Source: Umezawaea tangerina (GTDB lineage: Bacteria; Actinomycetota; Actinomycetes; Mycobacteriales; Pseudonocardiaceae). Taken from it: a stretch of 64,000 bases of DNA. The position numbers and the translations under genes were made by a program. The notes below the pieces were generated by a model that ran no database searches, was not told where the DNA came from, and worked only from the letters and a program-made list of their open reading frames with translations. Of this stretch, positions 11,199 to 62,393 are shown piece by piece. The DNA lies in contig NZ_PVTF01000005.1 of NCBI RefSeq assembly GCF_003002815.1, forward strand, positions 607,733 to 671,732, in the 5' to 3' direction. Position 1 is the first letter of the stretch. Every line of letters begins with the position of its first letter.

Positions 11199-11281
11199 CC
11201 CGGAACGGGTCGCGGTCGGCGCCCGTCCACGCTCCTCCTGCCCGGCACCGCCGGCGCTCCGGCACGTGGGCGGGCGACCGT

Positions 11282-11299: not shown

Positions 11300-11370
11300 C
11301 GCGCCGATGAGTCCTGCGGTGCCGGGTGGTCAGTACTGTCGAACCCGTTTCGACCAAGGAGGACCTCAGC

Positions 11371-11934: not shown

Positions 11935-11998
11935 CGGCTCGACCGGTCCACACCGAAAAGGTGTGCGACGCGGCGGCCGCTGTGGTCATCATGGCGGC

Positions 11999-12841
11999 AT
12001 GCTGCTGCTGGTCCCGTCCGATCCGCTCCGCCCGAACCGCCCCGACGAGCACTTCGCCGCCGAGGCCTCCGCCGCGCGTGCGGCGGGGGTCCCGGTGGGG
12101 TTGGTCGACCACGACCTGGTGGTCTGCGGCGAGGCGGACCGGGCGGTGGCCAGGGTGCCCGCGGGCGGGGACGCGGTGTACCGGGGCTGGATGGTGGGCA
12201 GCGGGCGGTACGCGGAGCTCGTGGAGGCGTTGGGGCGGCGGGACGTCTCGGTGCGGACCGGCGCGGAGCAGTACCGGCGGGCGCACGAGCTGCCGGGGTG
12301 GTACGCGGGGCTGGCCTCGGTGACGCCCGAGTCGGTGTGGACGGTGGGGTTCGGGCGGGAGGCGTTCGAGGAGGCGTGCGGGCGGCTGGGGGCGGGGCCC
12401 GCGGTGCTGCGGGACTACGTGAAGTCGATGAAGCACCACTGGCACGAGGCCGCGTTCATCCCGGAGGCGGCTGACCGCGAGGCCGCGTGGGCGGTGGCGC
12501 GTCGGTTCGCGGAGCTGCGCGGGGACGAGGCCGTGGGCGGGTTCGTGCTGCGGCGGTTCGAGCGGTTCACGTCAGCGGAGGCGCGGACGTGGTGGGTGGA
12601 CGGGCGGTGCGCGCTGGTGGGGCCGCACCCGGACACGCCGGACGACCTGGTCGAGCCGGACCTGACCGGGGTCGCGGAGCTGGTGCGCGGGTTCGGGCTG
12701 CCGTTCGTGGCGGTGGACCTCGTGCTCGGCGCCGACGGGTGGCGCGTCGTGGAGCTCGGGGACGGGCAGGTGAGCGACCGGCCGCGCGGCGTCCCGGCGG
12801 AGGACGTGATCGCGATGCTGGTCAGCGGCGGCGCGGGGTGA
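11999..12841 (+). CDS. ATP-grasp domain protein
   Basis: A 280-aa cytoplasmic protein resembling the ATP-grasp group often annotated DUF4343. The C-terminal half has the arrangement FVLRRFERF...WWVDGRCALVGP...FVAVDLVLGADGWRVVELGDGQVSD, whose final acidic residues and Asn/Gly-rich turn are typical of ATP-grasp Mg-ATP binding. It would join a carboxylate to an amine or thiol, substrate unknown. Start ATG 11999; the in-frame start 36 nt earlier adds a Gly/His-rich stub. Its 3 prime end overlaps the convergent HxlR gene by 20 nt. Confidence 0.72.
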   Translation: MLLLVPSDPLRPNRPDEHFAAEASAARAAGVPVGLVDHDLVVCGEADRAVARVPAGGDAVYRGWMVGSGRYAELVEALGRRDVSVRTGAEQYRRAHELPGWYAGLASVTPESVWTVGFGREAFEEACGRLGAGPAVLRDYVKSMKHHWHEAAFIPEAADREAAWAVARRFAELRGDEAVGGFVLRRFERFTSAEARTWWVDGRCALVGPHPDTPDDLVEPDLTGVAELVRGFGLPFVAVDLVLGADGWRVVELGDGQVSDRPRGVPAEDVIAMLVSGGAG

Positions 12842-13250
12842 GGCTGTCGCGGGTGATCTCGCGGTGGCAGTGGCGGCAGGTGTGGTCGATCTTGAGCGGG
12901 TGCCCGCAGTCGTGGTCGAACGAGGTGATCGGCGGGTCGTTGGCCCACTTGTCGCCCCACTCGGACAGGGCGAGCAGGACCGGGGCGAGCTCGGTGCCCG
13001 CCTCGGTGAGGTGGTACTCGAACCGGGGCGGGTGCTCGGAGTACTGGCGGCGTTCGACGACGCCCGCCTGCTCCAGGGTGCGCAGCCGGTCGGTGAGGAT
13101 GTTGCGGGACGCGCCGGTGTAGCCCGCGATCCGCTCGAACCGGTGCACGCCGTAGCTCATCTCGCGCACGGCCAGCAGCGTCCAGCGTTCGCCGAGGACG
13201 TGCAGCGAGCTCGCGATGGAGCACGGGCGCGGCGTGATCGTGCTGTCCAT
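12822..13250 (-). CDS. HxlR-family transcriptional regulator
   Basis: A 142-aa winged-helix regulator. The HxlR pattern CSIASSLHVLGERWTLLAVREM, the helix RFERIAGYTGASRNILTDRLRTLEQAGVV and the wing RFEYHLTEAGTEL are all present. A Cys near the N-terminus (Cys10) could be a redox or electrophile sensor, as in YodB/HypR relatives. It is divergent from an SDR gene, with two related palindromes in the 93-nt gap, so it probably represses itself and the SDR operon. Confidence 0.9.
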   Translation of the reverse strand: MDSTITPRPCSIASSLHVLGERWTLLAVREMSYGVHRFERIAGYTGASRNILTDRLRTLEQAGVVERRQYSEHPPRFEYHLTEAGTELAPVLLALSEWGDKWANDPPITSFDHDCGHPLKIDHTCRHCHREITRDSLTPRRR

Positions 13251-13262
13251 GGGGCCAGCATA

Positions 13263-13323
13263 GTCAGTTGCGATTCGCTACGCACTCCTGTTACGTTCCG
13301 GTCAGTAGCAAATCGCTACTGAC
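13263..13323. promoter_or_regulatory. Paired HxlR operators between divergent genes
   Basis: At 13301-13323 a perfect inverted repeat has arms GTCAGTAGC and GCTACTGAC around AAATC. A degenerate copy begins at 13263 (GTCAGTTGC, spacer GATTC, then GCTACGCAC). Spacing between copies is 38 nt. Their place between the hxlR-like and SDR starts suggests regulator binding sites. Confidence 0.7.
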
Positions 13324-13343
13324 ACGTCGACAAGGATCGCCAC

Positions 13344-14204
13344 ATGGCCGCGAAGCGGTGGAAAGCCAGTGATGTGCCCGACCAGTCGGGTCGGACGGTC
13401 GTCGTGACCGGGGCGTCGAGCGGGATCGGGCTGGTGACGGCACGTGAGCTGGCCCGCGCGGGCGCGCACGTCGTGCTCGCGGTGCGGGACCGGGCCAAGG
13501 GCGAGCGGGTCGCGGCGGACATGACGGGGTCGGTCGAGGTGCGCGAGCTGGACCTGGGCGACCTCGCGTCGGTGCGGGCGTTCGCCTCGGCGTGGAGCGG
13601 GGACCTGGACGTCCTGGTGAACAACGCCGGGGTCATGCGGGTGCCGGAGGGCCGGACGGTGGACGGGTTCGAGGTGCACCTGGGTACCAACCACCTGGGG
13701 CCGTTCGCGTTGACGACCCTGCTGCTGCCCCGGATCACCGACCGGGTGGTCACGGTGTCGTCGTTCCTGCACGCCAAGGGGCGGATCGACCTGGACGGGC
13801 GGGAGCGCCCGTACGACGGTGCGCAGGCCTACAACGACACCAAGCTGGCGAACGTGCTGTTCGCGTTGGAGCTGCAAAGGCGGCTGGCCGCGGCGGGCAG
13901 CCCGGTGCGGTCGTTCGCGGCGCACCCCGGTCTGGCGAGCACGAACCTGCTCGGGCACGTCGGCGGTTTCCAGAGCCTGATGCTGCCCCTGGTCGGCCAG
14001 AGCCCCGACCAGGGCGCCCTGCCCACGCTCTACGCGGCCACCCAGGACCTGCCGGGCGGCTCGTACGTCGGCCCGGACGGGTTCCGCGGCCTGCGCGGCC
14101 ACCCCGTCGTCCAGCAGCCCTCCGCGACCGCCCGCGACCCGGAGCTGGCCCGCGGGCTGTGGGAGCTCTCCGCACGGTTGACGTCCGCCGGGCGGTCCCG
14201 ATGA
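13344..14204 (+). CDS. Short-chain dehydrogenase/reductase
   Basis: A 286-aa NAD(P)-dependent oxidoreductase of the classical SDR fold, retinol-dehydrogenase/WW-oxidoreductase-like branch. It shows TGASSGIG at about residue 23, NNAG at about 91, and the catalytic YNDTK (Tyr about 162, Lys about 166). Substrate unknown. Divergent HxlR neighbours commonly control such detoxifying reductases. The stop codon overlaps the next start (ATGA), so the next gene is co-translated. Confidence 0.92.
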   Translation: MAAKRWKASDVPDQSGRTVVVTGASSGIGLVTARELARAGAHVVLAVRDRAKGERVAADMTGSVEVRELDLGDLASVRAFASAWSGDLDVLVNNAGVMRVPEGRTVDGFEVHLGTNHLGPFALTTLLLPRITDRVVTVSSFLHAKGRIDLDGRERPYDGAQAYNDTKLANVLFALELQRRLAAAGSPVRSFAAHPGLASTNLLGHVGGFQSLMLPLVGQSPDQGALPTLYAATQDLPGGSYVGPDGFRGLRGHPVVQQPSATARDPELARGLWELSARLTSAGRSR

Positions 14205-14920
14205 GCGGCCTGGTCGACGAGGTCGTCGCCGCGCACGGCGGGATGGCGCGCTGGCGCGAGGTCACCGCGATCCGGGCCGACCTGTCCGGCAGCGGCGCCC
14301 TGTGGGACCTCAAGGGCCAGTCCGGCCTGTTCTCCGCCGTGCGCTTCACCGTCGACCCGCGGGAGCAGCGCACGTCCGTGGCGCCGTTCGCGCGCGAGGG
14401 GTGGCGCGGGGTCTGCACGCCTTCGCGGGTGTGGGTCGAGGACGCCGACGGCCGGGTCATCGAGGAGCGCGCCGACCCGCGGGCCGCGTTCGCCGGGCAC
14501 GTGCTCGCGACGCCGTGGGACCGCCTGCACGCGCTCTACTTCGGCGGGTACGCGATGTGGACGTACCTGACGCTGCCGTTCCTGTTGCTGGAGCCCGGTT
14601 TCGCGGTCGAGGAGCTGCCGCCGACGAAGGAGGTTGGTGAGCGGAGGCGGCGGTTGCGCGTCACGTTCCCGCCCAGCGTCGCGACGCACTGCGCGGTGCA
14701 GGTGCTGCACGTCGACGACGCCGGGCTCGTCCGGCGGCACGACTACACCGCCGAGGTCGTCGGCGGCGGCCCGGCCGCCCACTACCTGTCCGGCCATCAG
14801 GAGTTCGACGGCCTGGTCTTCCCGACGGACCGCCGCGTGCTCTCCCTCCACCCGGACGGCACGGTGGCGTCGGAGCCGGTGCTGGTCGGGCTCCGGTTCG
14901 AGGGCTACGCGGTGGGGTGA
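14201..14920 (+). CDS. Hypothetical protein coupled to SDR
   Basis: A 239-aa soluble protein I cannot assign to a named enzyme. It begins MSGLVDEVVAAHGGMARWREV and has many short beta-type segments (VRFTVDP, RLRVTFPP, DYTAEVV), which suggests a lipoprotein-carrier-like or beta-barrel fold. It starts inside the SDR stop codon (ATGA) and ends in a GTGA that offers a start for the downstream NACHT frame. It probably serves the same pathway as the SDR. Confidence 0.7.
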   Translation: MSGLVDEVVAAHGGMARWREVTAIRADLSGSGALWDLKGQSGLFSAVRFTVDPREQRTSVAPFAREGWRGVCTPSRVWVEDADGRVIEERADPRAAFAGHVLATPWDRLHALYFGGYAMWTYLTLPFLLLEPGFAVEELPPTKEVGERRRRLRVTFPPSVATHCAVQVLHVDDAGLVRRHDYTAEVVGGGPAAHYLSGHQEFDGLVFPTDRRVLSLHPDGTVASEPVLVGLRFEGYAVG

Positions 14921-14955
14921 CCGGTAACAGGCCCGTCGCGGTGCGCGATGACCGC

Positions 14956-16953
14956 ATGACGACCGGCTTGGGAGGGCGTGTGCGCGGAGAGGACCCGGAG
15001 CACTCCGGATCCGGCGTGCGCAACGTGGTGCACCGCAGCCGGATCGGGTCGCTGGTGCAGGCGCACACGATCAACGAGCTCCACCTGCACCAGGCCGCAC
15101 CGGAGCCCACGACCGACGCGACGGCGAAGGCGAAACTGGCCGAGCTGGTGCGCGCGCAGTGGTCGGACGAGTCGAGCCTGCGCGACCTGGACGGCGACCG
15201 GCACATCCCGGTGCGGTGGCGGGTGGTGGGATCGCGACGGCAGCTGGACGCCGACGAGCTGGTCGCCGCGTTCCGAGCCGAGGAGCACCGGCGGCTGGTG
15301 GTCCTCGGTGGCGCGGGCACCGGGAAGACCTCGTTCGCGGTCGCCCTGCTGCGCGCGCTGGTCGTCAGCCGCGAGCCGGAGGACCCGGTACCGGTGCTGG
15401 TGTCCGCCGCGGGCTGGGAGGTGGACGAGTACCCGGACGTGCGGGGATGGCTGGTCGCACAGCTGGAGCGGACCTACGCCAAGGGCACCGGGCTGCGGCC
15501 GGAGGCGCTGGCCGCGCTCGTCGCACGGGGGCACGTCCTGCTGGTTCTCGACGGGCTGGACGAGATGCCCGCCGACGCGCGCGCGGCCGGGATCACCGCG
15601 CTCAACAGCAGGTTCCCCGGCGACCACCAGCTCATCGTGACCTGTCGCAGCGAGGAGTACCGGCAGGGTGGGGCACTGGGGTCGGCACTGGTGGTGGAGC
15701 CGGAACGGCTCTCCCCCGAGATCGCCGCCGACTACCTCGAACGGGTGGTGCCCGACACGAGCCCGGACTGGGCCGGGCTGCTCGCCGCGGTGCGCGCGGG
15801 CACGGCGGGTGGGCTGGGCGAGATCGTCACGACGGCGTTCGGCCTGTGGCTGGTCGGGGTGGCGGGCGCCGGAGTGGACCTCGACGTCGTGCGGAACGAA
15901 CCCGACCACGACGTCGTGCGGGTGCACCTGCTGGATCGGCTGGTCCCGGTCCTGGTGCAGCGGCGCCGCCCGGACCTTGGGTCAGGGACGTTGTCGACGT
16001 TCCGGCGCAAGCACATGGTGGCCGCGCCGTCGGTCACCCTGCGGGAGCACGACCCGGCGGACGTCGAGTTCGCCCTGGGACTGCTGGCGGATTACGTCGG
16101 GGAGCAGCCGTTCGCCTGGTGGGAGTTGGCGGAGGACGTCCGGAGAGCCAGGGGCAGTCGGTGGGTCCGCACCACGTTCGCGTCGCTGTTCGGTCTGATC
16201 GGAGCGGTGTGCACGGGCTTGAGCGCTCACGCCAGGGCGGAGAGCCCGTTCTTCGCGCTCATGGGGGCGGCGCTGGGCGCGGGTGTCGGCCTGCTCGGGG
16301 CGCGTGCGACCAGGCGATGGGGTGACGACTCACCCGCCTTCGCCGACTTCCGACTCCGGGGTCGAGGCCTGTCGGCGGTCTCGACCTTCCTGGGAACCTG
16401 CTTCGCTTGCGGCATCATGGTCCCCTTGGGGCTCCTGACGGGCCAGAGCACCCCGACCATCATCAGCTGGATCGTGATCTGCCTGGTGTTCGGCCTGTCC
16501 CTCTGGATCGAGACCCCGCTGCCGGACGGGACCGCGTCGACCCCGATGGGCAGTTGGCGCGCCGACCGGCGGGTGAACGTCATCCGCTGGCTCCTCGTGG
16601 GCAGTACCGCGGCGATGCTCGGCACGATCGGGATGGACCTCGCGTTCATCCCCGGCATGGCCGACGCCGGCCTGGGCGACGACCCGTACCTGACGATCGG
16701 CGTCATGTTGTGCGGCACCGGGTTCCTGCTGACGACGATCGGTGACCACCGCGCCTGGATGGGCTACCTGCTGGCCACGACGCGGCTCGCGGTCACGCGG
16801 TCGTTGCCGCGCGACCTCATGCCGTTCCTCGACGACGCGCACCGGATGGGGCTGCTGCGGGCCGTGGGACCGGTGTACGAGTTCCGGCACGAGTACGTGC
16901 GGCGGTACCTCGCCGCCAAGTACAAGTACTGGGTGGGCGGCGGCGAGGGGTGA
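14956..16953 (+). CDS. Membrane NACHT-type STAND NTPase
   Basis: A 665-aa signalling NTPase. The N-terminal stretch at about 22-46 (RNVVHRSRIGSLVQAHTIN) resembles the short amyloid signalling motifs described on actinobacterial NLR-like proteins. The NACHT core follows: Walker A GGAGTGKTS at about 118 and Walker B VLLVLDGLDEMP. After about residue 400 come roughly six hydrophobic helices and a C-terminal RHEYVRRYLAAKY, as in NACHT-transmembrane families. A role in conflict or stress signalling is inference. Start choice is unsure: GTG 14917 (GTGA overlap with the previous gene), ATG 14956, or GTG 14980 behind GGAGGG are all possible. Confidence 0.85.
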   Translation: MTTGLGGRVRGEDPEHSGSGVRNVVHRSRIGSLVQAHTINELHLHQAAPEPTTDATAKAKLAELVRAQWSDESSLRDLDGDRHIPVRWRVVGSRRQLDADELVAAFRAEEHRRLVVLGGAGTGKTSFAVALLRALVVSREPEDPVPVLVSAAGWEVDEYPDVRGWLVAQLERTYAKGTGLRPEALAALVARGHVLLVLDGLDEMPADARAAGITALNSRFPGDHQLIVTCRSEEYRQGGALGSALVVEPERLSPEIAADYLERVVPDTSPDWAGLLAAVRAGTAGGLGEIVTTAFGLWLVGVAGAGVDLDVVRNEPDHDVVRVHLLDRLVPVLVQRRRPDLGSGTLSTFRRKHMVAAPSVTLREHDPADVEFALGLLADYVGEQPFAWWELAEDVRRARGSRWVRTTFASLFGLIGAVCTGLSAHARAESPFFALMGAALGAGVGLLGARATRRWGDDSPAFADFRLRGRGLSAVSTFLGTCFACGIMVPLGLLTGQSTPTIISWIVICLVFGLSLWIETPLPDGTASTPMGSWRADRRVNVIRWLLVGSTAAMLGTIGMDLAFIPGMADAGLGDDPYLTIGVMLCGTGFLLTTIGDHRAWMGYLLATTRLAVTRSLPRDLMPFLDDAHRMGLLRAVGPVYEFRHEYVRRYLAAKYKYWVGGGEG

Positions 16954-53048: not shown

Positions 53049-54017
53049 ATGGCTCGGGCGATCTGGAGCGGTGCGATCAGCTTCGGGCTGGTCACGATCC
53101 CGGTGGCGCTCTACAGCGCCACCCACGACCACACCGTGCACTTCAACCAGTTCGAGCGCGGCACGTCCGACCGCATCCGCTACCAGCGGGTCAACGAGCG
53201 CACCGGCGACGAGGTCGACTACTCCGACGTCGTGAAGGGCCACGACGTGGGCGAGGGCGAGTACGTCGTCCTCGAGCAGGACGAGCTGGCCGACATCGCC
53301 CCCGGCCGGTCCCGCACGATCGACATCGACACCTTCGTCGACCTCGACGAGATCGACCCCGTCTTCTTCCAGAAGAGCTACTGGCTCGGCCCGGCCAAGT
53401 CCGAGTACGCCCACCCGTACCGACTGCTCGTGCGCGCCATGGCGAAGACGAACCGGGCGGGCATCGCCACGTTCGTCATGCGCGGCAAGCAGTACCTCAC
53501 CGCCGTGCACGCCGACGGCGACCTGCTGGCCCTGGAGACCCTGTTCTTCGCCGACGAGATCCGCGACCCCGCCGACGTCCTGGACGAGCTGCCCACCGGC
53601 GACCGCGCCAAGCCCAAGGAGGTCGCGATGGCGACCTCGCTCATCGACTCGATGAGCGGCCCCTGGCGGCCGGAGGACTACCGCGACACCTACACCGCCA
53701 AGGTCGAGAAGCTGGTGCGCGACAAGCGCAAGGGCAAGAAGACCACCCCGGCCCCCGCACCCTCCCACGCCACCGAGCCCGTCGACCTCATGGAGGCCCT
53801 GCGCCACAGCGTCGAGAGCACCCGGAAGAGCCGCGCCAAGGCCGGTGGCAAGAGCAGCGACAAGGGCGACGGCGACCGGGCGGGCAAGCCCTCGGCCAAG
53901 GCGTTGTCCGACCTGTCCAAGGCCGACCTGGACAAGCGCGCCCGCGAGCTCGGGGTCAGCGGCCGCTCGAAGATGAAGCGCGCCGACCTGGAGAAGGCGG
54001 TCCGCAAGGCGTCCTAG
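53049..54017 (+). CDS. ku: Ku protein (non-homologous end joining)
   Basis: A 322-aa bacterial Ku that would dimerise on DNA double-strand ends and recruit LigD. The beta-barrel core begins ARAIWSGAISFGLVTIPVALYSAT and contains YLGPAKSEYA-like YWLGPAKSEYAHPYRLL. After a Lys-rich linker, a C-terminal SAP/Rho-N-like helix pair is present (LSDLSKADLDKRARELGVSGRSKMKRADL). No ligase is in the window. The stop codon TAG is part of the CTAG target duplication of an inserted mini-IS. Confidence 0.95.
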   Translation: MARAIWSGAISFGLVTIPVALYSATHDHTVHFNQFERGTSDRIRYQRVNERTGDEVDYSDVVKGHDVGEGEYVVLEQDELADIAPGRSRTIDIDTFVDLDEIDPVFFQKSYWLGPAKSEYAHPYRLLVRAMAKTNRAGIATFVMRGKQYLTAVHADGDLLALETLFFADEIRDPADVLDELPTGDRAKPKEVAMATSLIDSMSGPWRPEDYRDTYTAKVEKLVRDKRKGKKTTPAPAPSHATEPVDLMEALRHSVESTRKSRAKAGGKSSDKGDGDRAGKPSAKALSDLSKADLDKRARELGVSGRSKMKRADLEKAVRKAS

Positions 54018-54466
54018 CCGCTGTTTGAGGTTTGGATCATGTGGTCGAGCAAGGTCTTCAACCACATGATCGCTGCACGCAGGCGTAACCCGGCTTCGTA
54101 GCTTTCTGGCGACTCGTCATAGCGTGTGGGCCCCGGAGCCCCTTTTTCGTGGTAGGCCCGCACGGTCGTGGAGTCCACGCTGACCAGTTCCAGTCCGACC
54201 TGCCCGCGGGATGCGGCCGCGGCGATCAGCGCGTCCATCAGCGCCTGGAACACCCCGCCCTTGGCCCAGGCGTTGAACCGGGAGTAGATCGTGGACCAGG
54301 GCCCATACCGCTCGGGAACATCACGCCAGCCCGACCCGGTACGAAACCGCCGCAGAACCCCGTTGAACTGATCCCGCACCCGCCGAGGCAACGGCCCCGC
54401 AGCCGCCACCGGCACAAGCGGTTCGATCAACGCCCACTCGGCATCGGTCACGTCAAAACGAGCCAC
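54014..54466 (-). pseudogene. IS5-family transposase, in-frame internal deletion
   Basis: A 150-codon remnant. The N-terminal part is a normal IS5-type DDE transposase (RFDVTDAEWALIEPLVP, DVPERYGPWSTIYSRFN, first catalytic Asp in VSVDSTTVRA). It then jumps to the family's C-terminal segment (SYEAGLRLRAAIMWLKTLL), losing the second Asp and the Glu. Still open because the deletion is in frame, but it cannot be active by itself. The start is GTG 54466. Its stop TAG is read from the same CTAG that gives Ku its stop on the other strand. Confidence 0.82.
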
Positions 54467-54522
54467 ATCCGTGTTCCACCAGCACACCACCAGCAAGCCC
54501 AGATCCGAACTTCGAACAGCCC
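54018..54522 (-). mobile_element. Internally deleted IS5-family mini-element
   Basis: About 505 bp between CTAG direct repeats (54014-54017 and 54523-54526), the known target of IS5-group elements. Terminal inverted repeats GCTGTTTGAGGTTTGGATC (54020-54038) and the complement of GATCCGAACTTCGAACAGC (54502-54520) agree at 16 of 19 positions. Complete IS5-type elements are usually well over 800 bp, so the middle is missing. Confidence 0.82.
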
Positions 54523-54574
54523 CTAGCCGCGACGCTCCCGTCGCCGCGGCCCAGAACACCCCGGCACACCCCGC

Positions 54575-55378
54575 TCAGCCGCCGAAGTCGAACGCGTCTC
54601 GGCGCCGGGAGTGCTGCTCCAGCAAGGAGAACGCCAGCACGGCCATCACCAGCCAGCCGACGCCGCAGGCCAGTGCCAGCCCGGCCTGCCCGAGCACGTC
54701 GGCGACCGGGGCCCGGTCGCCGACCGACCTGATCGCGGCCAGGCCGTGGGTCAGCGGCAGTGTCGACGCGATCGACCGCACCCACGAGGGCCAGAAGTCC
54801 ACCGGTACCTGCACCCCGCAGATCGCCATCATGACCAGGTAGGCGGAGTTGGACAGCAGGTTGCGCGCCCCGGACGCGGTGAGCACGAACGCGGACAGGA
54901 ACAGCCCCACCGCGTAGGTCGACAACGCCGTCAGCGGCACGAGCAGCACGAGCGCGGGGACCTGGGTGGGCGACCAGTGCACCCCGAACGCGGGTGCCAG
55001 CGCCAGCAACGACACCAGGGCGGTCAGCGAGCCGCTGACGGGCCACTGGACGCTGCGGCCGAGGAAGACCCAGGCCAGCCGGACCGGTGCCGCGCTCAGC
55101 AGCGGGAGCGTGCCGATCCTGCCCTCCGACGAGCTCGACGCGACCACGCTCATCGTCTCCACCACGCAGGTCATGACCGCGTTGCCGACGACCAGGTACC
55201 GCAGCTGCGCCTGGTCGCCGAGCATGATGCCCACGAAGGCGAAGAACGTGACCTGGGCGAGCATCCGCCCCAGCCAGCCGAAGGTCCAGCTCCACCACGT
55301 GTAGGAGGCGCGGAAGTCCGCCCAGGCGTTGGCCGCGCTGTAGCGCAGCACCGTGGACGTGCGCACGAGGTACCGCAT
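54575..55378 (-). CDS. ABC-2 type exporter permease (distal)
   Basis: A 267-aa membrane protein of the ABC-2 permease family with six predicted helices. Segments typical of the family are FVGIMLGDQAQLRYLVVGNAVMTCV and the conserved GIQVPVDFWPSW-like CGVQVPVDFWPSWVRSIASTLPLTHGLAAIR. ATG 55378 has GAGGT seven bases upstream. It is the last gene of the minus-strand cassette and ends 52 nt from the mini-IS. It works with the next permease and the ATPase to export a small product, inferred to be the modified peptide. Confidence 0.88.
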   Translation of the reverse strand: MRYLVRTSTVLRYSAANAWADFRASYTWWSWTFGWLGRMLAQVTFFAFVGIMLGDQAQLRYLVVGNAVMTCVVETMSVVASSSSEGRIGTLPLLSAAPVRLAWVFLGRSVQWPVSGSLTALVSLLALAPAFGVHWSPTQVPALVLLVPLTALSTYAVGLFLSAFVLTASGARNLLSNSAYLVMMAICGVQVPVDFWPSWVRSIASTLPLTHGLAAIRSVGDRAPVADVLGQAGLALACGVGWLVMAVLAFSLLEQHSRRRDAFDFGG

Positions 55379-55390
55379 GGGTGCCACCTC

Positions 55391-56158
55391 TCAGGTCCTG
55401 GCCAACGTGCCGGTCGACCGCACCCGCCGCAGGATGCGGGTGATCATCAGCCCGCCGACGGCGCAGCCCGCCGCGCCGAGCACCGCGATCGCCGCCAGCC
55501 GCGGCAGCTCGTCGACGACCGGCGCCGGGGACAGCGCGCTGCGCAGCAGGTCCGAGCTCCACGACAGGAACACCAGCCTGCTCAGCGGCCGCAGCCACTC
55601 CGGCAGGTAGCTCACCGGCACGAGGATGCCGCCGAGCAGGTAGAACGGGTAGGTGAAGCTGTTCTGCAGCGTGCGGGCGGTCGGCAGCAGCACGTACAGC
55701 GCCGACATCGCGCTGGCCGTGCCCGCCATCGCCAGCGCGGACAGCACCAGGCACCACAGCAGCGTCAACGGGTGCTCGACGCGCACCACGACGCCGAACG
55801 GCCACCAGGCGACCAGCCACGACTCGACGAAGCTGACCGTGCTGATCGTGGTGACGGCGGTGATCCGGGCGAGGACCACGACCGGGAACGAGGCGGGTGT
55901 GGCGACCATCGCCTCCAGCGTGCCGCGCGAGCGCTCGCGGGAGATCAGGTCGCCCGCGGTCAGCAGGGCCAGGCTCCACAACGACATCAGCACCGGCGCG
56001 AGCACCGCGTACGCGGCGAGGTCGGTCCGGTGCGCGTGCCTGCTGATCGCCATGAACACCACCGTGTACAGCGGTGCCGTCACGAGCACGTGCACGGTGT
56101 CGGGCGAGCGCAGGGTGAGCGCCGCCTGGAACCGGAAGGCGTCCCGGAACAGTCTCAT
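55391..56158 (-). CDS. ABC-2 type exporter permease (proximal)
   Basis: A 255-aa ABC-2 permease with six helices. ISRERSRGTLEAMVATPAS is the cytoplasmic coupling loop and YPFYLLGGILVPVSYLPEWLRPLSRL the re-entrant C-terminal segment. Its start overlaps the ATPase stop by 4 nt. The two permeases probably form a heterodimer. Confidence 0.9.
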   Translation of the reverse strand: MRLFRDAFRFQAALTLRSPDTVHVLVTAPLYTVVFMAISRHAHRTDLAAYAVLAPVLMSLWSLALLTAGDLISRERSRGTLEAMVATPASFPVVVLARITAVTTISTVSFVESWLVAWWPFGVVVRVEHPLTLLWCLVLSALAMAGTASAMSALYVLLPTARTLQNSFTYPFYLLGGILVPVSYLPEWLRPLSRLVFLSWSSDLLRSALSPAPVVDELPRLAAIAVLGAAGCAVGGLMITRILRRVRSTGTLART

Positions 56159-57117
56159 GGGGACACCAGCATCCCGCGGTCGCCGATGACGTGCAGGTAG
56201 ACCTCTTCGAGGCTCGGCCGGACCGTGCGCAGGGCCGTCACACCGGCGGACACCAGCAGCGCCAACACCTCGCTGGTGGCGGCCGGCGTCGTGGTGTGCA
56301 CGACGACCCGGCCGCCGGTCTCCCGGTGCGCCTTGGAGACCCCGGACAGCGCGGACAGCCCCGCCAGCACGTCGTCAGCGACGCCGTCGGCCTCGACCCG
56401 CTCCAAAGTGGACAGCCGGGCCGCCAGCCGGGCCGGGGTGTCGGTCGCCAGCAGCACGCCGTTGTCGATCAGCGTCACCTCGTCGCAGACCGCCTCGGCC
56501 TCGGCCATGTCGTGCGTTGTCAGCAGCAGGGTGCGGCCCTCGGCGGTCAACTCGCCGATGAGCCCGCGGAAGTCCCGCACCGCCACCGGGTCCATGCCCG
56601 AGGTCGGCTCGTCCAGGATGAGCACCCGCGGGTCGCTGATCAGGCCGCGCGCCAGGTGCAGGCGCTGCTTCATGCCGCGGGAGAAGCCGTCGACCCGGTC
56701 GCGCGCCCGCCCCGACAGGCCGACCCGTTCCAGCAGCTCGTCCACGCGCCGCGACAGCGCGCGCCCGTGCAGGTCGTAGAGCGCGCCCCACAGCTGGAGG
56801 TTCTGCCTGGGGGTCAACCGCCCGTACAGGCCGCGGTCGCCGCCGAACACCACGCCGATCGACCGCTTGACCGCCAGGGTCTCGTGCCGGACGTCGTGGC
56901 CCAGCACCGAGGCGGTGCCGGAGCTGGGCAGCAGCACGGTGGACAGGATCTTGCACAGCGTGGTCTTGCCCGCGCCGTTGGGACCTAGCAGCCCCCGCAC
57001 CGAACCGGACGGGATCGACAGGTCGACACCGCCCAGCGCGACGATCTCGCCGCCACCCCGCCCGGCCCGCGCCGGGAACGTCCGCCGCAGCGACCGGGTC
57101 TCGACCGCGTCGGTCAT
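56155..57117 (-). CDS. ABC-2 exporter ATPase
   Basis: A 320-aa DrrA/CcmA-type ATPase: Walker A GPNGAGKTT at about residue 41, signature variant FSRGMKQRLHLARGL, Walker B VLILDEPTSGMDP and H-loop TTHDMAEAE. A C-terminal extension of about 80 residues is usual for drug/antibiotic exporters. It overlaps the nucleotidyltransferase gene by 4 nt, which ties export to the modification genes. Confidence 0.93.
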   Translation of the reverse strand: MTDAVETRSLRRTFPARAGRGGGEIVALGGVDLSIPSGSVRGLLGPNGAGKTTLCKILSTVLLPSSGTASVLGHDVRHETLAVKRSIGVVFGGDRGLYGRLTPRQNLQLWGALYDLHGRALSRRVDELLERVGLSGRARDRVDGFSRGMKQRLHLARGLISDPRVLILDEPTSGMDPVAVRDFRGLIGELTAEGRTLLLTTHDMAEAEAVCDEVTLIDNGVLLATDTPARLAARLSTLERVEADGVADDVLAGLSALSGVSKAHRETGGRVVVHTTTPAATSEVLALLVSAGVTALRTVRPSLEEVYLHVIGDRGMLVSP

Positions 57118-58193
57118 GGGGAACCCACCTCCAGTCCGTCCAGCTCGCGCAGCGCGGCGTGGTAGTCGTCCTCGGTCACGAGCTCGCCCGCCACGAGCAG
57201 GAAGTCCGCCACCGGGGTGCGCAGCAGGTCGAGGCCCTCACCGCGGTGCAGGCTGCTGACCGACCAGTCCCGGCGGGCACGCCGCAGCAGGAACCCGTAG
57301 ACGGGCAGCCCGGCCGCGAGACGGCCCTGCACGGTCGGCGGGACGCTTTCGACGGGGCTGCCACCGGTCCGCCGCCGCCGTTCCTCCTCGGCGGGTGCGC
57401 GCAGCCGCTCGACGCACTCCTCCAGCAGCGGGGAGGAGATGTGCTCGGCGGTCCTGGCGAGCAGCTCCAGCAGCTCGGGGGCGCGGAAGTACTCGACCGC
57501 GGTGTCGGCGAGCCGGTCGGGGTCCGGCGGGCCGCTGTCGAACAGCATGACGACGTCGACCACGTCCTTGACGGTGAACTCGTGCTGGAAGCGCTCCTCG
57601 GCGAGGCAGACGAGCGCGGCCAGGGTGGCGTCCGCGGGCAGCACGACCGACGGCGGCACCCGCACGTAGTCGCCGACGAGGGCGATCGTGGTGAGCTCGA
57701 CCCGGTTGTCCCGGTCCAGCAGCGGGTCGTCGGAGGGCCAGGACAGGCCCGCCAGCACGTGCGTGACCCCGTCGAACCGGAGCAGCGAGACGTCGATCAG
57801 CTCGACGTCGACCTGGTCGCCGACCACCCCGGCCGCGCGCCACAGCGACGCCTCGTCCGCGAGCAGCAGGTCCAGGTCGGCCGAGGGGCGGACCACGTCC
57901 GGCGGGTAGAACCCGGCGATCGACTGCCCCTTCAGGATCCGGATGGGCGTGGCGGCGCCGATGTCGGCGGCCAGCCCCCGGTAGCGCGCGGCCTGTTCGC
58001 GTTCCCGGCGCAGCTCGTCGGCGCTGCCGGTGCCGATCTTCAGACCGTCGCGGGCCGCGACGGAGATCACCATGTGGGACAGGTGCGACCCGGCCTTGCC
58101 CGCGGCGCGCATCACGGCGCGGACCGACTCGGACTCGTCGACGCCCAGCAGCGAGCGCAGGAAGGCGAAGTCGACCTTCGCGGAGAGGCTCAT
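57114..58193 (-). CDS. NTP_transf_5-like nucleotidyltransferase
   Basis: A 359-aa cytoplasmic protein resembling the PF14907 group of uncharacterised nucleotidyltransferases, found in several peptide natural-product clusters. The core is RILKGQSIAGFYPPDVVRPSADLDLLL: Lys88-Gly89, then Asp106 and Asp108 as probable Mg-NTP ligands. An acidic third ligand could be in VDVELIDVSLL. The C-terminal half is helical. It would transfer a nucleotide onto a small molecule or peptide; its acceptor here is unknown. ATGA overlaps join it to the genes on either side. Confidence 0.75.
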   Translation of the reverse strand: MSLSAKVDFAFLRSLLGVDESESVRAVMRAAGKAGSHLSHMVISVAARDGLKIGTGSADELRREREQAARYRGLAADIGAATPIRILKGQSIAGFYPPDVVRPSADLDLLLADEASLWRAAGVVGDQVDVELIDVSLLRFDGVTHVLAGLSWPSDDPLLDRDNRVELTTIALVGDYVRVPPSVVLPADATLAALVCLAEERFQHEFTVKDVVDVVMLFDSGPPDPDRLADTAVEYFRAPELLELLARTAEHISSPLLEECVERLRAPAEEERRRRTGGSPVESVPPTVQGRLAAGLPVYGFLLRRARRDWSVSSLHRGEGLDLLRTPVADFLLVAGELVTEDDYHAALRELDGLEVGSP

Positions 58194-59017
58194 CACCGGC
58201 TCCCCAGTGGCGCGAACCAGTACCGGTGGCTGACCCGCCACCCGCGTCTGCGCAGCGAGGCCAGGACGCGCTCGGCCTTCCCGGAGCTGTCGCCCACCGG
58301 GTGCACGACGTTGCCGAACAGCGGCAGGCCGAGGCCCGCGGCGTGCTCGCCCGCCGCGGCGGTCAGGGCGGTGGTGGCGGCGCGCACGTCGACCACCGGT
58401 TCCACCAGGCTGTCCACCAGTTCCACGAAGTCCGTCCCCGTCACCTCGTCGTGCGCCGCGCACAGCAGCGTGGCGTGCCCGACGGGCTCGCCGCGGTGCC
58501 ACACCAGCAGCGACACGCGTCCCCGCTGCTCCAGCACGCTCCGCGCGGCCGTGGCCGCGTCGGTGGCCGCCACGTCGGCCTCGATCTCGTCGCCCGCGGC
58601 GTGGAACGCCCGTTCGAGCCAGCCCAGCACCAGCGGGTCGTGCTCCGGTCCCGCCGTCGTCACCTCGAAGTCCACGTCCGCCGCCGACGCCGCCAAGTCC
58701 ACATCGGACGGAGACCCGCCCGCCAGCCGGACGTAGGTCACCTGGGTCCGCCACGGTCGCGGCAGCTCCACCCACGGACCGGTGCGCATCAGCAGGCCGT
58801 CCGCGTCGTCGTGGCCCGCGACCAGCACCCCGGTGAGCTCGGCCAGCAGGGCGGGGTCCTCGACCAGCCCGTGGTCGGCGTACTCCACCAGCACCTGCCG
58901 CCGGCCGGTGACCGCGTCCGTGTACGCGCCCGCGACGTAGGACCGCCCGGCGACCGTGCGGAGCAGACCGCTCTCCCGCGCCGCGTCGACGTAGCCCGAA
59001 TCCACCGCGCGGGTCAT
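58193..59017 (-). CDS. GNAT-like acyltransferase fold protein
   Basis: A 274-aa protein. The C-terminal 150 residues read like a GNAT acetyltransferase: VSLLVWHRGEPVGHATLL is the central beta-hairpin, followed by DFVELVDSLVEPVVDVRAATTALTAAAGEHAAGLG and a final SLRRRGWRVSHRYWF. The usual RxxGxG acetyl-CoA loop is weak, so it may be degenerate or have another role. The N-terminal half (RSYVAGAYTDAVTGRRQVLVEYADHGLVEDP) matches nothing I know. Coupled by 4-nt overlaps to the M16 and nucleotidyltransferase genes. Confidence 0.6.
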   Translation of the reverse strand: MTRAVDSGYVDAARESGLLRTVAGRSYVAGAYTDAVTGRRQVLVEYADHGLVEDPALLAELTGVLVAGHDDADGLLMRTGPWVELPRPWRTQVTYVRLAGGSPSDVDLAASAADVDFEVTTAGPEHDPLVLGWLERAFHAAGDEIEADVAATDAATAARSVLEQRGRVSLLVWHRGEPVGHATLLCAAHDEVTGTDFVELVDSLVEPVVDVRAATTALTAAAGEHAAGLGLPLFGNVVHPVGDSSGKAERVLASLRRRGWRVSHRYWFAPLGSR

Positions 59018-60231
59018 GACGCCTCCGGTCGCACGCACACGAACAGGCCGTCGGCGACCTGCGCCGCCGCGGCCCGGACGTCCTGCGCCGTGACGGCGGC
59101 CAGCTCGGCCAGGTCGTCGTCGAGCGACCACGCCACGGTGCCCGCCCTGCCGCGCGCGCCGATCAGGTTGGCCTGTTCGAGCGGCGACTCGCTGTCCCGG
59201 ATCAGGCCCATCACCGCCTGCCTGCGGGCGGCGTCGAGGTCGTCGGGCGTGGGGCCGTCGGTGGCGAGCCCGGCCAGCAGCTCCCGGACGACCTCCATCA
59301 GCCGCGGGGCCGACTCCGGTTCGACACCGACCAGCAGCCGCCACACCCCCGCGTCGGCGTAACCGCGGTGCCACGCCTGGAACGAGTAGGCCAGCCCCTC
59401 CTGGTTGCGCAGGGACCGGTAGAGCAGCGACGAGGGGCTGGAACCGAGCAGCTTGGCCAGCACGTTGTAGGCCGACCGGTCGGGGTCGCCGGTGCGGGGC
59501 GAGGCGGCGCCCATGCACACCCAGCACAGGTTCTCGTCCGTCGGCCACGCGGGCAGCCGGTCCTGCCGTGCGGGGACCGGCTCGTCCCGGCCGACGCGGA
59601 ACACCGCGCCCGAGCCCGCGGCTGGCGAGTCGACCAGCGGCTTGGGGATCCTCGGTCCGACCACCACCAGCACCATCGGGCTGGTGAGGAAGTTCGCGGC
59701 GTGCTCGGCCCGGAGCTCCTCGACCGTGATGGCGGCCAGCTCCTCGGGCACACCGCCGACCGGACGTCCCAGGTCGTGGCCCGCGAAGAACTCGGCGAGG
59801 AACGCGTCCTGCACGGCGTCGGCCATGTCGGCCGCGCCGGTCGCCAGCTCCTTGAGCACCACGGCCCGCTCGTCGGCCAGCCGGTCGGCCTCGAAGACCG
59901 GCGCGAGCACCGCGGTGTGCAGCAGCTCGGCGATCTCGTCGGCGTCGTCGGCGCTCACCTGGGCGTAGAACTGCGTCATCTCCGGCGCGGTGTGGGCGTT
60001 GACGTAGCCGCCGAGCCGCTCGACGTGCTCGCAGAACGACGGAACCCCGGCTACCGGACTGGACATCAACAGGTGTTCGAGCAGGTGCGCTACTCCGCCG
60101 CGGCCGGCCGGATCGTGCCGGGCGCCGTAGCCGACGGTGAGGCTCAGGCTGGTCGTCCGCAGCTTCTCGTCGACGACGGGGACGACGGGAATGCGCGCGA
60201 AGCCGACCGGAGGTGCTCCGGTTGTGGTCAT
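59014..60231 (-). CDS. M16-family zinc metallopeptidase
   Basis: A 405-aa single-chain M16B (mitochondrial-processing-peptidase-like) protease. The inverted zinc motif is HLLEH, with His49, Glu52 and His53; Glu128 is the third ligand at the canonical distance of 76 residues. The C-terminal half has SSLLYRSLRNQEGLAYSF, the substrate-pocket Arg/Tyr motif. A complete active site in one polypeptide suggests it homodimerises. It is the first enzyme gene after the 21-aa peptide and probably trims that peptide. ATG 60231 has a strong GGAGGTGA upstream. Confidence 0.93.
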   Translation of the reverse strand: MTTTGAPPVGFARIPVVPVVDEKLRTTSLSLTVGYGARHDPAGRGGVAHLLEHLLMSSPVAGVPSFCEHVERLGGYVNAHTAPEMTQFYAQVSADDADEIAELLHTAVLAPVFEADRLADERAVVLKELATGAADMADAVQDAFLAEFFAGHDLGRPVGGVPEELAAITVEELRAEHAANFLTSPMVLVVVGPRIPKPLVDSPAAGSGAVFRVGRDEPVPARQDRLPAWPTDENLCWVCMGAASPRTGDPDRSAYNVLAKLLGSSPSSLLYRSLRNQEGLAYSFQAWHRGYADAGVWRLLVGVEPESAPRLMEVVRELLAGLATDGPTPDDLDAARRQAVMGLIRDSESPLEQANLIGARGRAGTVAWSLDDDLAELAAVTAQDVRAAAAQVADGLFVCVRPEAS

Positions 60232-60269
60232 CTCTACTCACCTCCGCAGGGTGGTCGAATTCAAGGAAA

Positions 60270-60303
60270 GCGCCGCCACGGAGAACATCCCCCGTGGCGG
60301 CGC
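60270..60303 (-). terminator. Attenuator-like hairpin between peptide gene and M16 gene
   Basis: A perfect 12-bp stem (60270-60281 with 60292-60303, one arm GCGCCGCCACGG) and a 10-nt loop. It lies 20 nt after the peptide stop and ends about 38 nt before the M16 start. No T-run, so partial termination or RNA-end protection is likely; both would raise peptide mRNA over enzyme mRNA. Confidence 0.75.
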
Positions 60304-60323
60304 CAATTACCCGTCTGTCAAGC

Positions 60324-60389
60324 TCAGCGCTTGGGGGTCTGCACCTTGTCCAGACGCGGGCGGAGCAGGGAGACGTGGTTGCGGTTCAT
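60324..60389 (-). CDS. 21-aa basic peptide, candidate RiPP precursor
   Basis: A 21-codon gene beginning MNRNHVSLLR and ending VQTPKR before TGA. It has a proper ribosome-binding site (AGAGG six bases before ATG). The product has six Arg/Lys and one Asp, no Cys, one Ser (7), one Thr (18) and Pro11/Pro19. It is the first gene of the minus-strand cassette with an M16 protease, a GNAT-like protein, a nucleotidyltransferase and an ABC-2 exporter, and a hairpin separates it from them. That layout is typical of peptide natural-product precursors. A regulatory leader peptide is the main alternative. I know no described family with this sequence. Confidence 0.6.
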   Translation of the reverse strand: MNRNHVSLLRPRLDKVQTPKR

Positions 60390-60436
60390 TTTCTACCTCT
60401 TTCGTTAAACTCCCCCGGACGGCTCCGGGTAATACA

Positions 60437-60708: not shown

Positions 60709-61482
60709 TCAGCGCATGTAGCCGAACTCGCCGGTCTCGCCGAGCGTGCGGGCCAGCGCCGTCGCCGCACCGCGCACCGCGGGGACCACGATGCCGACCG
60801 GGCACGAGGACGCGGGCCCCACCACCGACATCGCCGCGACCACACCGACGCCCGGCACGAGCACCGGGCAGGACACACCGACGATCCGCTCGGCCGGGGT
60901 GTCGTACTCGACCGACGAGTGCCCCAGCGACCTGATCCGGTTGAGGTGCGAGCCGTCGTCGGGCCGGGGGACGGCGCGCAGCGGGTAGCCGGGCCGTTCG
61001 AAGGCCTTGATCGCCTTGGCGGCCGCGTTCGCCGCGATCCGGTCGGGGTTCACCCCGGCGAAGTGCCCCGGCCGGGCCTTGCTGTGCCGCGCCAGGTGGA
61101 CGGCGGTCTCGCCGTCCCGGACCGACAGGTAGGCGCGCCCACCGGTCGTGTCGTGCAGCCGGGCGAGCAGCGGTGCCGCCACGTCGCACAGCACCCGGTG
61201 GGTGGGCACCCTGGAGCCGAGCACGGACAACCGCCGCCCCAGGCGGAGCTCCCTGCCGTGCCGCTCCAGCAGGCCCCACTGGACGAGCTCGCCGATCAGC
61301 CGGTGGGCGGTCGGCTTCGACAGGCGCGCCCGTCGGGCCAGCTCCGTCAGCGACAGCGTGCTGCCCGTCGGTTCGAACATGCACAGAATGGCCAACGCCT
61401 TGCCCAGCATGGACAGCTTGGGGTACCCGTCCTGCGCCAGGTCCCCGATCCTGCCCTTGTCCGCCTCGATCGACATGGTCAT
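60709..61482 (-). CDS. IclR-family transcriptional regulator
   Basis: A 257-aa regulator. N-terminal winged helix: MLGKALAILCMFEPTGSTLSLTELARRARLSKPTAHRLIGELVQWGLL. C-terminal effector (GAF-like) domain: GGRAYLSVRDGETAVHLAR and IVGVSCPVLVPGVGVVAAMSVVGP. ATG 61482 has AAAGGA upstream. It lies upstream of the peptide cassette on the same strand but is separated from it by a strong terminator, so any control would be in trans. Confidence 0.92.
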   Translation of the reverse strand: MTMSIEADKGRIGDLAQDGYPKLSMLGKALAILCMFEPTGSTLSLTELARRARLSKPTAHRLIGELVQWGLLERHGRELRLGRRLSVLGSRVPTHRVLCDVAAPLLARLHDTTGGRAYLSVRDGETAVHLARHSKARPGHFAGVNPDRIAANAAAKAIKAFERPGYPLRAVPRPDDGSHLNRIRSLGHSSVEYDTPAERIVGVSCPVLVPGVGVVAAMSVVGPASSCPVGIVVPAVRGAATALARTLGETGEFGYMR

Positions 61483-61715
61483 CACCGTCGTCCTTTCCCC
61501 TCGGGAAACGCGACTTCCCGCCTCGCTCCGGTCACTGGGCCGACGTTGCTCAGCGCGGTTCCCGCACCGGTCCCCCGTCGATCCCTGCGCCCTTCCGGGC
61601 CTGGTGAGGGGCACTGAGACGACAACCGCGGCGGAGGACCGGTGGGCGGATCGAGGGGGTGCGGCGGTGTTCGACGGTCCGCGCGGATCGCAGGACGGTC
61701 AGCGACGGGCGGGGA

Positions 61716-62393
61716 TCACTTGTCCCAGCCGAGCTCGTCGAGGCCGCGGAAGAAGCGGCCGTTCGTCCGCTCCGCCGGGAGGTCCAGCAACCGGACCAGG
61801 TCGGCGGCGGTGTCGGCGGGGTCGTCCGGGGCGGAGTCCGTGCCCATCTCCGTGCGGATCCACCCCGGGCAGTACGAGAACGCGGACACGTCGGTGCCCG
61901 CGGCGGTGAAGTGCCGCGACACGGCCAGCGTCAACGAGTTCACGGCCAGCTTCGAGGACCGGTAGGCGAACGACGCGCCGTCGGCGTCCTGGAGGCGTCC
62001 CATGCCGGAGGACACGCACACCATCCGGCCCGAGCCGCGTTCCACCATGCGCGGCGCGTACCGCAGGGCCATCTGCACCGTTCCGAACAGGTTGACCTCG
62101 AAGGTGCGGTGCAGGTCCTCCACCCGCAGCGCGAAGAGGTCGCCGTAGCCCGCGCGCGGGTCGTCCAGGTACACCCCGGCGTTGTTCACCACCACGTCGA
62201 CGTCCTCGGTGGCGAACAGCGACGCGGGCAGCCGGTCGCCCAGGTTCAGCGACCGGTAGTCGTCCAGGTCGTCGTGCCGCGGCGCGGCGGCCAGTCCCGC
62301 GCCCAGCACCCGGTACCCGGAACCCTTGAGGGAGCGGCAGATGTGGCGGCCGAGGCCTCGCGACACGCCGGTCACCAACGCGGTTGGCGTCAT
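61716..62393 (-). CDS. Short-chain dehydrogenase/reductase
   Basis: A 225-aa classical SDR. Cofactor motif TGVSRGLG near residue 8, NNAG at about 70, and the catalytic YRSSK later, with Ser in VSSGMG. Substrate unknown. It is divergent from the PHP phosphatase, and the gap holds a GTCCCAG/CTGGGAC palindrome. Confidence 0.92.
   Translation of the reverse strand: MTPTALVTGVSRGLGRHICRSLKGSGYRVLGAGLAAAPRHDDLDDYRSLNLGDRLPASLFATEDVDVVVNNAGVYLDDPRAGYGDLFALRVEDLHRTFEVNLFGTVQMALRYAPRMVERGSGRMVCVSSGMGRLQDADGASFAYRSSKLAVNSLTLAVSRHFTAAGTDVSAFSYCPGWIRTEMGTDSAPDDPADTAADLVRLLDLPAERTNGRFFRGLDELGWDK

Follow-up and report, generated by a model that had tools for sequence, protein, structure and literature searches.

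What does a 21-codon reading frame do at the head of a set of enzyme and transporter genes? The question is raised by a window of 64,000 nucleotides from Umezawaea tangerina (the whole stretch of DNA analysed here). On its minus strand, such a frame precedes genes for an M16 peptidase, a tandem-GNAT-fold protein, a nucleotidyltransferase (NTase), an ABC ATPase and two ABC-2 permeases, in this order and within a compact cassette of about 5.8 kb. From sequence comparison and structure prediction, the cassette probably serves to produce and export a RiPP (ribosomally synthesised, post-translationally modified peptide) of a new class, with the basic 21-residue peptide, the M16, GNAT-fold and NTase-like proteins and the ABC-2 transporter as its parts.

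Layout of the cassette

The seven frames claimed on the minus strand by a first-pass annotation of this DNA were all found again at the same place and on the same strand, as detailed below together with two further elements.

60395..60400, minus strand: Shine-Dalgarno-like AGAGGT, 5' of the peptide frame (sequence)
60324..60389, minus strand: candidate precursor peptide gene, 21 aa, MNRNHVSLLRPRLDKVQTPKR (family conserved in 38 loci; third-codon-position variation)
60270..60305, minus strand: hairpin of about 16 bp, ends approximate, between the peptide stop and the M16 gene (RNA stem scan)
59014..60231, minus strand: M16 zinc peptidase, HLLEH (Pfam PF00675, 73.7 bits, and PF05193, 82.6 bits, both above cut-off)
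58193..59017, minus strand: predicted tandem-GNAT-fold transferase, family without a Pfam model (AF2 pLDDT 92.9; Foldseek, VIA-align)
57114..58193, minus strand: pol-beta-type NTase, NTP_transf_5-like (PF14907, 21.1 bits, below the cut-off; AF2 pLDDT 93.7)
56155..57117, minus strand: ABC transporter ATPase, DrrA-like (PF00005, 106 bits; drrA model 257 bits, below its cut-off of 312)
55391..56158, minus strand: ABC-2 permease 1 (PF01061, 63.5 bits)
54575..55378, minus strand: ABC-2 permease 2 (PF01061, 38.5 bits)

The six large genes had been described as joined nearly throughout by 4-nt overlaps. Such overlaps are present at three of the five junctions (M16/GNAT, NTase/ABC ATPase and ABC ATPase/permease 1), but the GNAT and NTase genes overlap by 1 nt, and a gap of 12 nt separates the two permeases if the second one starts at the ATG at 55378. 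The hairpin is likely a partial terminator or an RNA stabiliser, and it probably keeps the precursor mRNA at a higher level than the enzyme mRNA. In 34 of the 36 loci tested, the 90 nt that follow the peptide include a stem of at least 9 bp. The host genome contains three cassettes in all, and each encodes a peptide version of its own.

Conservation of the peptide gene

Homologous loci had been predicted to carry a conserved short peptide ahead of M16, and this prediction was strongly borne out. Of 40 multi-gene loci related to the cassette, the window included, 38 have the peptide, and in 30 of the 34 of these with M16 it ends at most 126 nt from an M16 start. These loci come from the window's own family, from Streptomycetaceae and from other groups, with named Streptomyces strains and relatives among the carriers. 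As for the two misses, the contig of L030 ends just before M16, and L156 is an outlying locus with no clear peptide. Retention of the enzymes without the peptide, named beforehand as the observation that would speak against the proposal, is approached by L156 only. The count of 40 leaves aside loci without a cassette, namely lone NTases (L020, L023, L024, L163, L173) and lone GNATs (L099-L101), as well as duplicates (L137 of L030, L139 of L026, L028 of L022). The locus set also excludes further hit genomes (10 weak GNAT hits, plus 24, 8 and 1 from other searches), and prevalence among genomes is a lower bound, 4 to 7 candidates being scored per genome.

The peptides are basic, 14-25 aa long in all loci but one, and centred on L-R-P-[RK]-L. 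R3, R10 and P11 are invariant among the 27 aligned peptides, and conservation extends over most of the length, with variable last residues. Differences per codon position amount to 0.23, 0.16 and 0.48 for 12 RPR-type peptides, and to 0.12, 0.11 and 0.35 for six RPK-type ones. Since the third positions vary most, the gene appears to be translated and under purifying selection. A start-anchored pattern matched 32 reading frames in the 743,804 bases of the 38 loci, all of them cassette peptides already listed, and one in 10 shuffled copies (2-base blocks); having been derived from these same peptides, it gauges specificity rather than providing independent discovery. A 20-residue consensus-like peptide was also searched alone against 72,556 plasmids. 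It gave seven records, each one weak (E 0.6), which all fall within the nine records bearing the NTase; the other two are H1 (L171), whose peptide was missed, and H9 (L173), a lone NTase. An annotated gene underlies none of the seven matches in the gene table, which is incomplete. Three of the nine NTase-bearing plasmids were examined (H1, H5 and H9), of which H1 and H5 are counted in the 40. Presence at 38 of 40 loci and codon selection link a genetically encoded precursor to enzymes, as is expected of a RiPP, and establish, at the level of comparative genomics, that the peptide gene is real, selected and travels with the cassette enzymes.

The arrangement varies around this theme. L164 carries six tandem peptide genes of differing sequences downstream of M16, a likeness to multi-precursor clusters, and in L171 the peptide is encoded on the other strand at a distance of 6.4 kb from M16, with its sequence still conserved. 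M16 and GNAT are not constant parts of the set, as variants lack one or both, and no single enzyme is universal among the 38 loci: M16 is absent in four, GNAT in two and the NTase in two. The four variants without M16 and the two without GNAT all retain the NTase. In L027 no NTase match was found genome-wide, and the sole NTase in the genome of L148 has an in-frame stop. The ABC genes are absent from the stretch covered in L164 and are of a different type in L022.

Predicted enzymes and proposed pathway

The HxxEH motif (HLLEH in the window) and a Glu located 75 residues further on are invariant in 24 aligned M16 proteins, as expected of M16 membership, and HxxEH is found in all 39 M16 proteins scanned across the loci. 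In a sequence search of solved structures, M16 hits MPP-beta and a processing protease from a bacterium (best 3hdi, E 4e-66). The presence of M16 correlates with the start of the peptide. An N-terminal M-x-R-[NKQR] segment occurs at 33 of the 34 loci with M16, L098 being the exception, and at none of the four without; the strict R-[NKQ]-H form is seen in just 29 of these 34. In a subset of 36 loci, the counts are 31/32 against 0/4 (Fisher p 8e-5, the loci being treated as unrelated). On the NTase tree, in which 12 forks stay open and three end branches (L156, L155 and L019) are long, M16 presence requires four changes; L141 (M16, MRNHKTGLRPRLDK...) and L142 (no M16, MPLITMRPRLVK...) are sisters there (100/96). 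An independent-pairs test offers three supported pairs only, each of which goes the expected way (p 0.25). Other M16 genes are found elsewhere in the M16-less genomes G003 and G606 and could act in trans on the peptide. Like the non-cassette M16 genes of the window's own genome (L012/L021, 31% identity), they are probably housekeeping genes and were set aside. The cassette M16 probably processes the peptide N-terminus.

The window's GNAT-like protein had no match in the Pfam and NCBIfam scan, and the named members of its branch are called "hypothetical" in databases. Its AF2 model, analysed with Foldseek and VIA-align, shows a predicted tandem GNAT fold, a feature of the Fem-like aminoacyl-tRNA transferases. 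CoA-dependent GNAT acetyltransferases have a pyrophosphate loop motif, [QR]-x-x-G-x-[GA]. It is found at the expected loop in only one of 31 family members, which does not point to CoA dependence; some RPK-type members retain, by eye, R-G, a part of the Gly-containing CoA loop. A conserved active-site Lys is described in Fem-like transferases (FemX Lys305, DhpH Lys329; PMC12945691), and in the sequence alignment of the family no column has Lys in at least 20 of 31 members. The family profile gave weak GNAT matches and unrelated chains among solved structures, the best one (E 2e-4) being a cilia protein, and a protein search with the alignment retrieved at least 10 proteins among the 7,998 top candidates by shared words.

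For the NTase, the PF14907 score lies under the gathering score of 31.2, so that the window's protein is not formally assigned to NTP_transf_5; three of the nine relatives scanned pass it (L025 33.6, L095 33.5, L165 32.8). K88-G89, D106 and D108 are invariant in all 23 aligned sequences and a third acid, Glu or Asp, can be located by eye in a following strand, as in pol-beta-type enzymes. The AF2 model resembles the MenT/JHP933/ANT(2'') fold, and the MenT likeness is one of fold only (14% identity, Z rated middling by the tool). A sequence search of the profile against solved structures gave no match up to E 1. Of 43 peptides, one contains a Cys, and 21 lack Ser, Thr, Tyr and Cys altogether past the RP[RK] core; a conserved hydroxyl for classical nucleotidyl transfer is therefore missing.

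A plausible pathway would start with M16 cutting inside the N-terminal M-x-R-[NK]-H or directly behind it, leaving a fragment that starts near L-R-P-[RK]-L. The NTase might then attach a group derived from a nucleotide, and the tandem-GNAT protein might acylate or aminoacylate an amine, either the N-terminus or a lysine. Export of the finished small peptide would fall to the DrrAB-like ABC-2 pump, which may also protect the producer. The product could be a clipped, acylated or nucleotidylated peptide. A more precise version appears rather unlikely as a whole: a new RiPP class in which an L-R-P-[RK] peptide of about 20 residues, clipped by M16, would be joined to a nucleotide or nucleotide-derived sugar by a MenT-fold transferase acting on a peptide and not on tRNA, and capped by the GNAT protein with an amino acid taken from aminoacyl-tRNA. 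It would be secreted as a cationic peptide-nucleotide conjugate, elaborated in some strains by nucleotide or sugar enzymes. We know of no RiPP pathway that combines M16, GNAT and NTase. No class-defining enzyme of lanthipeptides, lasso peptides, YcaO or radical-SAM products was detected by Pfam and NCBIfam in the window's six large cassette proteins and three neighbours. BTAD (SARP-type) regulators lie near four cassettes (L026, L090, L091 and L148), which is consistent with secondary metabolism. If the RiPP reading is true, a family of natural products would have been overlooked because its precursor genes are very short (14-25 codons at every locus except one) and devoid of a Cys-rich core, and a function would be gained for a GNAT branch now called hypothetical and for its NTase partner.

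Rival readings and known systems

The conservation of the peptide over most of its length, with variable last residues, would also suit a re-usable, pearlin-like carrier on which the GNAT, the NTase and neighbouring enzymes build a small molecule, freed by M16 and then exported. Several loci lie indeed among small-molecule genes: NDP kinase and an adenylating enzyme near L172; AHCY, a cupin and an aminotransferase near L171; thymidylate synthase and a nucleoside deoxyribosyltransferase near L022; a UDP-sugar dehydrogenase near L155. But these neighbours change from locus to locus, a PEARL/LanB family match is absent from the window's six large cassette proteins and the six differing copies of L164 better fit product diversity, which makes such a carrier unlikely. 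In yeast a-factor processing, an M16-type protease and an ABC exporter act on a short peptide. The association of a short basic peptide with M16 and an ABC exporter, and the XRE-type HTH and LuxR-type regulators adjoining some cassettes (L018, L141), recall this situation and could indicate a population-sensing pheromone, merely clipped, lightly acylated and exported. The NTase, present in 36 of 38 loci, would then be superfluous, the kinds of regulators differ among the loci inspected, and no receptor gene common to these loci came to attention in passing. A pheromone appears unlikely as well.

Resistance proteins include GNAT, NTase and DrrAB-like pump types. With a strong hairpin behind the frame at nearly all loci tested, the frame might instead be a leader peptide, ribosome stalling at R-P-[RK] switching on a resistance operon. 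It lies directly 5' and on the same strand in most loci, but neither in L164, where the six copies are downstream of M16, nor in L171. Residues past the motif are conserved, L147 and L149 carry SPR where others have RPR, and pairing between the frame and the hairpin arm is overall no better than in shuffled sequences (mean z -0.28; below -2 in three of 34, L095, L096 and L142). Gene position in L164 and L171, together with this overall absence of alternative pairing, largely refutes attenuation, which is left with very little probability. Slighter still is the chance of a toxin-antitoxin or defence system with the MenT-like NTase as toxin and the peptide or the GNAT protein as partner. Beyond the fold-level limit of the MenT resemblance, it would leave the exporter and the peptidase unexplained. 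PADLOC scans gave no match for M16, GNAT and NTase, and the ABC ATPase matched only the ATPase components of several systems (best mad3, 90 bits), as expected of such a protein; no fitting defence system thus emerged from these four proteins.

Returning to the RiPP reading, no description of the cassette was found in the open-access literature searched. The decRiPPter study reports 42 candidate families, not all listed in its text (PMC7794033), and this peptide family could be one of them. The first-pass annotation named M16 proteases in PQQ and subtilosin maturation. They are known from more RiPP pathways than these, being found in class III (PttP1/PttP2, PMC10885120) and class V lanthipeptides (Cao15 and LxmP1/P2, PMC8068269; SprP, PMC7794033). 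These pathways likewise unite a ribosomal precursor and M16, with ABC transporters in the cacaoidin cluster, whereas the window cassette has no lanthionine enzyme, 42 of the 43 peptides have no Cys and the precursor is 14-25 aa long, one locus excepted. In lasso peptides with a nucleotidyltransferase gene N (phosphorylated or glycosylated), an annotated nucleotidyltransferase also tailors a RiPP, a likeness of annotation. In pseudomycoidin, knock-outs assign to PsmN the transfer of a hexose onto the phosphoserine (PMC9266682, PMC8498205). Unlike this type, the window cassette has no lasso cyclase or B protein, no core-set kinase and no conserved C-terminal Ser.

PqqF of the PQQ pathway is also an M16 peptidase acting on a small ribosomal peptide, but the window's protein scores 41.5 bits with the PqqF model (cut-off 320) and its cassette has no radical SAM. 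Pearlins, made by peptide aminoacyl-tRNA ligases, are similar in that a ribosomal peptide may gain amino acids before being proteolysed; their PEARLs are LanB-like (PMC12945691), in contrast to the window cassette, devoid of a LanB-like family match. Among the closest known systems are the GNAT-fold aminoacyl-tRNA-dependent transferases (Sba18/Sbb17, FemX and Orf11 of BD-12). Microcin C combines a short ribosomal peptide, a nucleotide group and an exporter. While the window cassette has no ThiF/MccB-type match and its NTase is a predicted pol-beta-fold protein, it resembles the microcin C (MccB) system in its short ribosomal peptide, its exporter and, possibly, a nucleotide group.

Gene order and the short peptide

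The first-pass annotation described seven minus-strand genes in a fixed order, and this order is present from 60389 to 54575: a 21-codon ORF preceded by a ribosome-binding site, followed by genes for an M16 peptidase, a family-less protein with a predicted tandem GNAT fold, an NTP_transf_5-like nucleotidyltransferase (NTase), an ABC ATPase and two ABC-2 permeases. The GNAT-like protein matched no family in scans of Pfam and NCBIfam. The six large genes had been described as nearly all joined by 4-nt overlaps, which holds for three of the five junctions, the other two being a 1-nt overlap and a 12-nt gap.

Features of the cassette and its surroundings in the window
60389 to 54575, minus strand: cassette of seven genes
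roughly 60270-60305: strong hairpin of about 16 bp, between the peptide stop and the M16 gene
54014-54559, minus strand: IS5-type transposase fragment (DUF4096), abutting the end of the second permease gene
60709-61614, minus strand: IclR-type regulator, upstream of the cassette
61716-62393, minus strand: SDR oxidoreductase, upstream of the cassette

No counterparts of this regulator and oxidoreductase were seen in the inspected ORF lists of other loci.

Three complete cassettes were found in this genome, on contigs C5 (the window), C6 (locus L018) and C10 (locus L019), each with a short ORF just upstream of the M16 gene (MNRNHVSLLRPRLDKVQTPKR, MRKHATSLRPRLDKVKTR, MTRNHSTGLRPRINKLVVKKAA). A conserved short peptide had been expected at homologous loci; it was indeed found in 38 of 40 multi-gene loci (each taken once, lone NTases and lone GNATs left out), totalling 43 ORFs. 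It is missing from L030, where the contig ends shortly before M16, and from L156, where a dissimilar 20-aa ORF was all that was seen. The two main types read LRPR[LI][DENQ]K (RPR-type) and LRPKLV[VI]K (RPK-type), and R3, R10 and P11 are invariant in all 27 aligned peptides. In a tally predating the plasmid loci L171 and L172, the peptides are 14-25 aa long with a net charge of +3 to +9 (K, R, D and E counted), L022 (44 aa) being excepted from both ranges. Third codon positions are about two to three times as variable as first and second ones, and the peptide DNA is clearly more conserved than its flanks (identity 0.63 and 0.80 versus 0.40-0.47). L171 and L172 have no annotated CDS at the peptide, and no annotated gene underlies seven plasmid peptide matches, in a plasmid gene table that is incomplete by its own account. 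Judged from these sequence patterns, the short peptide is a real gene family.

Since the ORF carries a stalling-type motif, R-P-[RK], and is followed by a hairpin, the possibility that it encodes a regulatory leader peptide of the operon was put to the test. RiPP operons commonly have a hairpin behind the precursor gene. L164 carries six head-to-tail peptide copies, downstream of M16, which argues against a leader, as does L171 (Streptomyces sp. HUAS 15-9 plasmid), where the peptide ORF and M16 are on different strands and about 6.4 kb apart. Overall, the ORF pairs with the hairpin arm no better than shuffled sequences do (mean z -0.28), with z below -2 in 3 of 34 loci (L095, L096, L142), and the first Arg of the motif is lost in L147 and L149. 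The peptide position in L164 and L171, together with pairing not above shuffles overall, led to rejection of the regulatory leader.

Enzyme content and the N-terminal segment

M16 is missing from four of 38 loci (L022, L089, L142, L165), GNAT from two (L164, L165) and NTase from two (L027, L148). The L027 genome gave no NTase match, and the sole match in the L148 genome lies about 12 kb from the cassette and has an in-frame stop. No ABC genes were seen within the examined stretch of L164, and those of L022 are of another type.

The peptide N-terminus M-x-R-[NKQR] occurs in 33 of 34 loci with M16, L098 being the exception, versus none of the four without it (Fisher p 8e-5 in a count of 36 of these loci, uncorrected for kinship); the strict R-[NKQ]-H form is present in 29 of the 34. 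This difference points to the N-terminal segment as the part that M16 would remove. M16 presence requires four changes on the NTase tree, and the kinship-corrected test has three supported pairs only, a number with which significance is unreachable. The G003 and G606 genomes contain other M16 genes. In four RPK-type cassettes (L092, L095, L096, L097), two M16 genes flank GNAT, both with HxxEH.

L022 (Streptoalloteichus tenebrarius, 1-8700) is an M16-less variant with an acid-tailed 44-aa peptide, a weak HPr-kinase match and ORFs resembling, by eye, TenA, an FAD oxidase and a SPASM-type protein. In L173 (8896-10234), from a Streptomyces microflavus plasmid, a lone NTase is followed by an acid-tailed 45-aa ORF that recalls the tail of the L022 peptide. 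Three genomes from the genus of the window have related lone NTases (L020 8489-9592, L023 8192-9307, L024 9149-10258) near a large gene (about 1230 aa), without M16. A 729-aa protein in L171 (4749-6938) has, by eye, a classical G-S...D-S-D-L nucleotidyltransferase-like motif and shares a cluster with AHCY, cupin and aminotransferase genes. Next to the L087 cassette, 11166-15372 encodes P-loop proteins and another NTP_transf_5 protein, a canonical one (86 bits), which perhaps form a separate RiPP cluster.

Distribution and neighbouring genes

Cassette frequencies are lower bounds because the genome searches scored part of the candidates, and absences hold among those scored. From hit lists and fetched regions, the cassette occurs in at least 12 of 390 genomes of its own family and at least 4 of 394 in the class sample (own genome counted in both), and in at least 16 of 394 Streptomycetaceae. 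The family of G606 has a clear cassette in at least 2 of 354 genomes; none was found among the candidates scored from 35 genomes of the G521 family, a set with no positive control. The NTase query matched at least 5 of 362 genomes, and the GNAT-like protein query retrieved six cassette loci in GTDB species genomes, one of which (L028) is the same locus as L022. Three of nine NTase-bearing plasmid records were examined.

Neighbours vary from locus to locus, and none common to most loci was seen. BTAD/SARP regulators lie near L026, L090, L091 and L148, HTH regulators near L018 and L141, and a LuxR-type regulator near L018. An NDP kinase is found near L164 and L172, a thymidylate kinase near L025 and L156, thymidylate synthase and nucleoside deoxyribosyltransferase near L022, a UDP-sugar dehydrogenase near L155, and AHCY, a cupin and an aminotransferase near L171. 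These differences suggest strain-specific elaboration, often involving nucleotide enzymes.

Relation to known RiPP systems

Published work offers parallels: M16 proteases act in class III and class V lanthipeptides (PMC10885120, PMC8068269, PMC7794033), pseudomycoidin is tailored by a nucleotidyltransferase (PMC9266682), nucleotidyltransferases are optional genes of daptide clusters (PMC10036551), and GNAT-fold enzymes of several pathways use aminoacyl-tRNA (PMC12945691). No description of the enzyme combination or of the peptide was found in the titles, abstract openings and consulted passages of the open-access papers retrieved. The cassette is therefore a candidate new class within the RiPP kind, and not a new kind.
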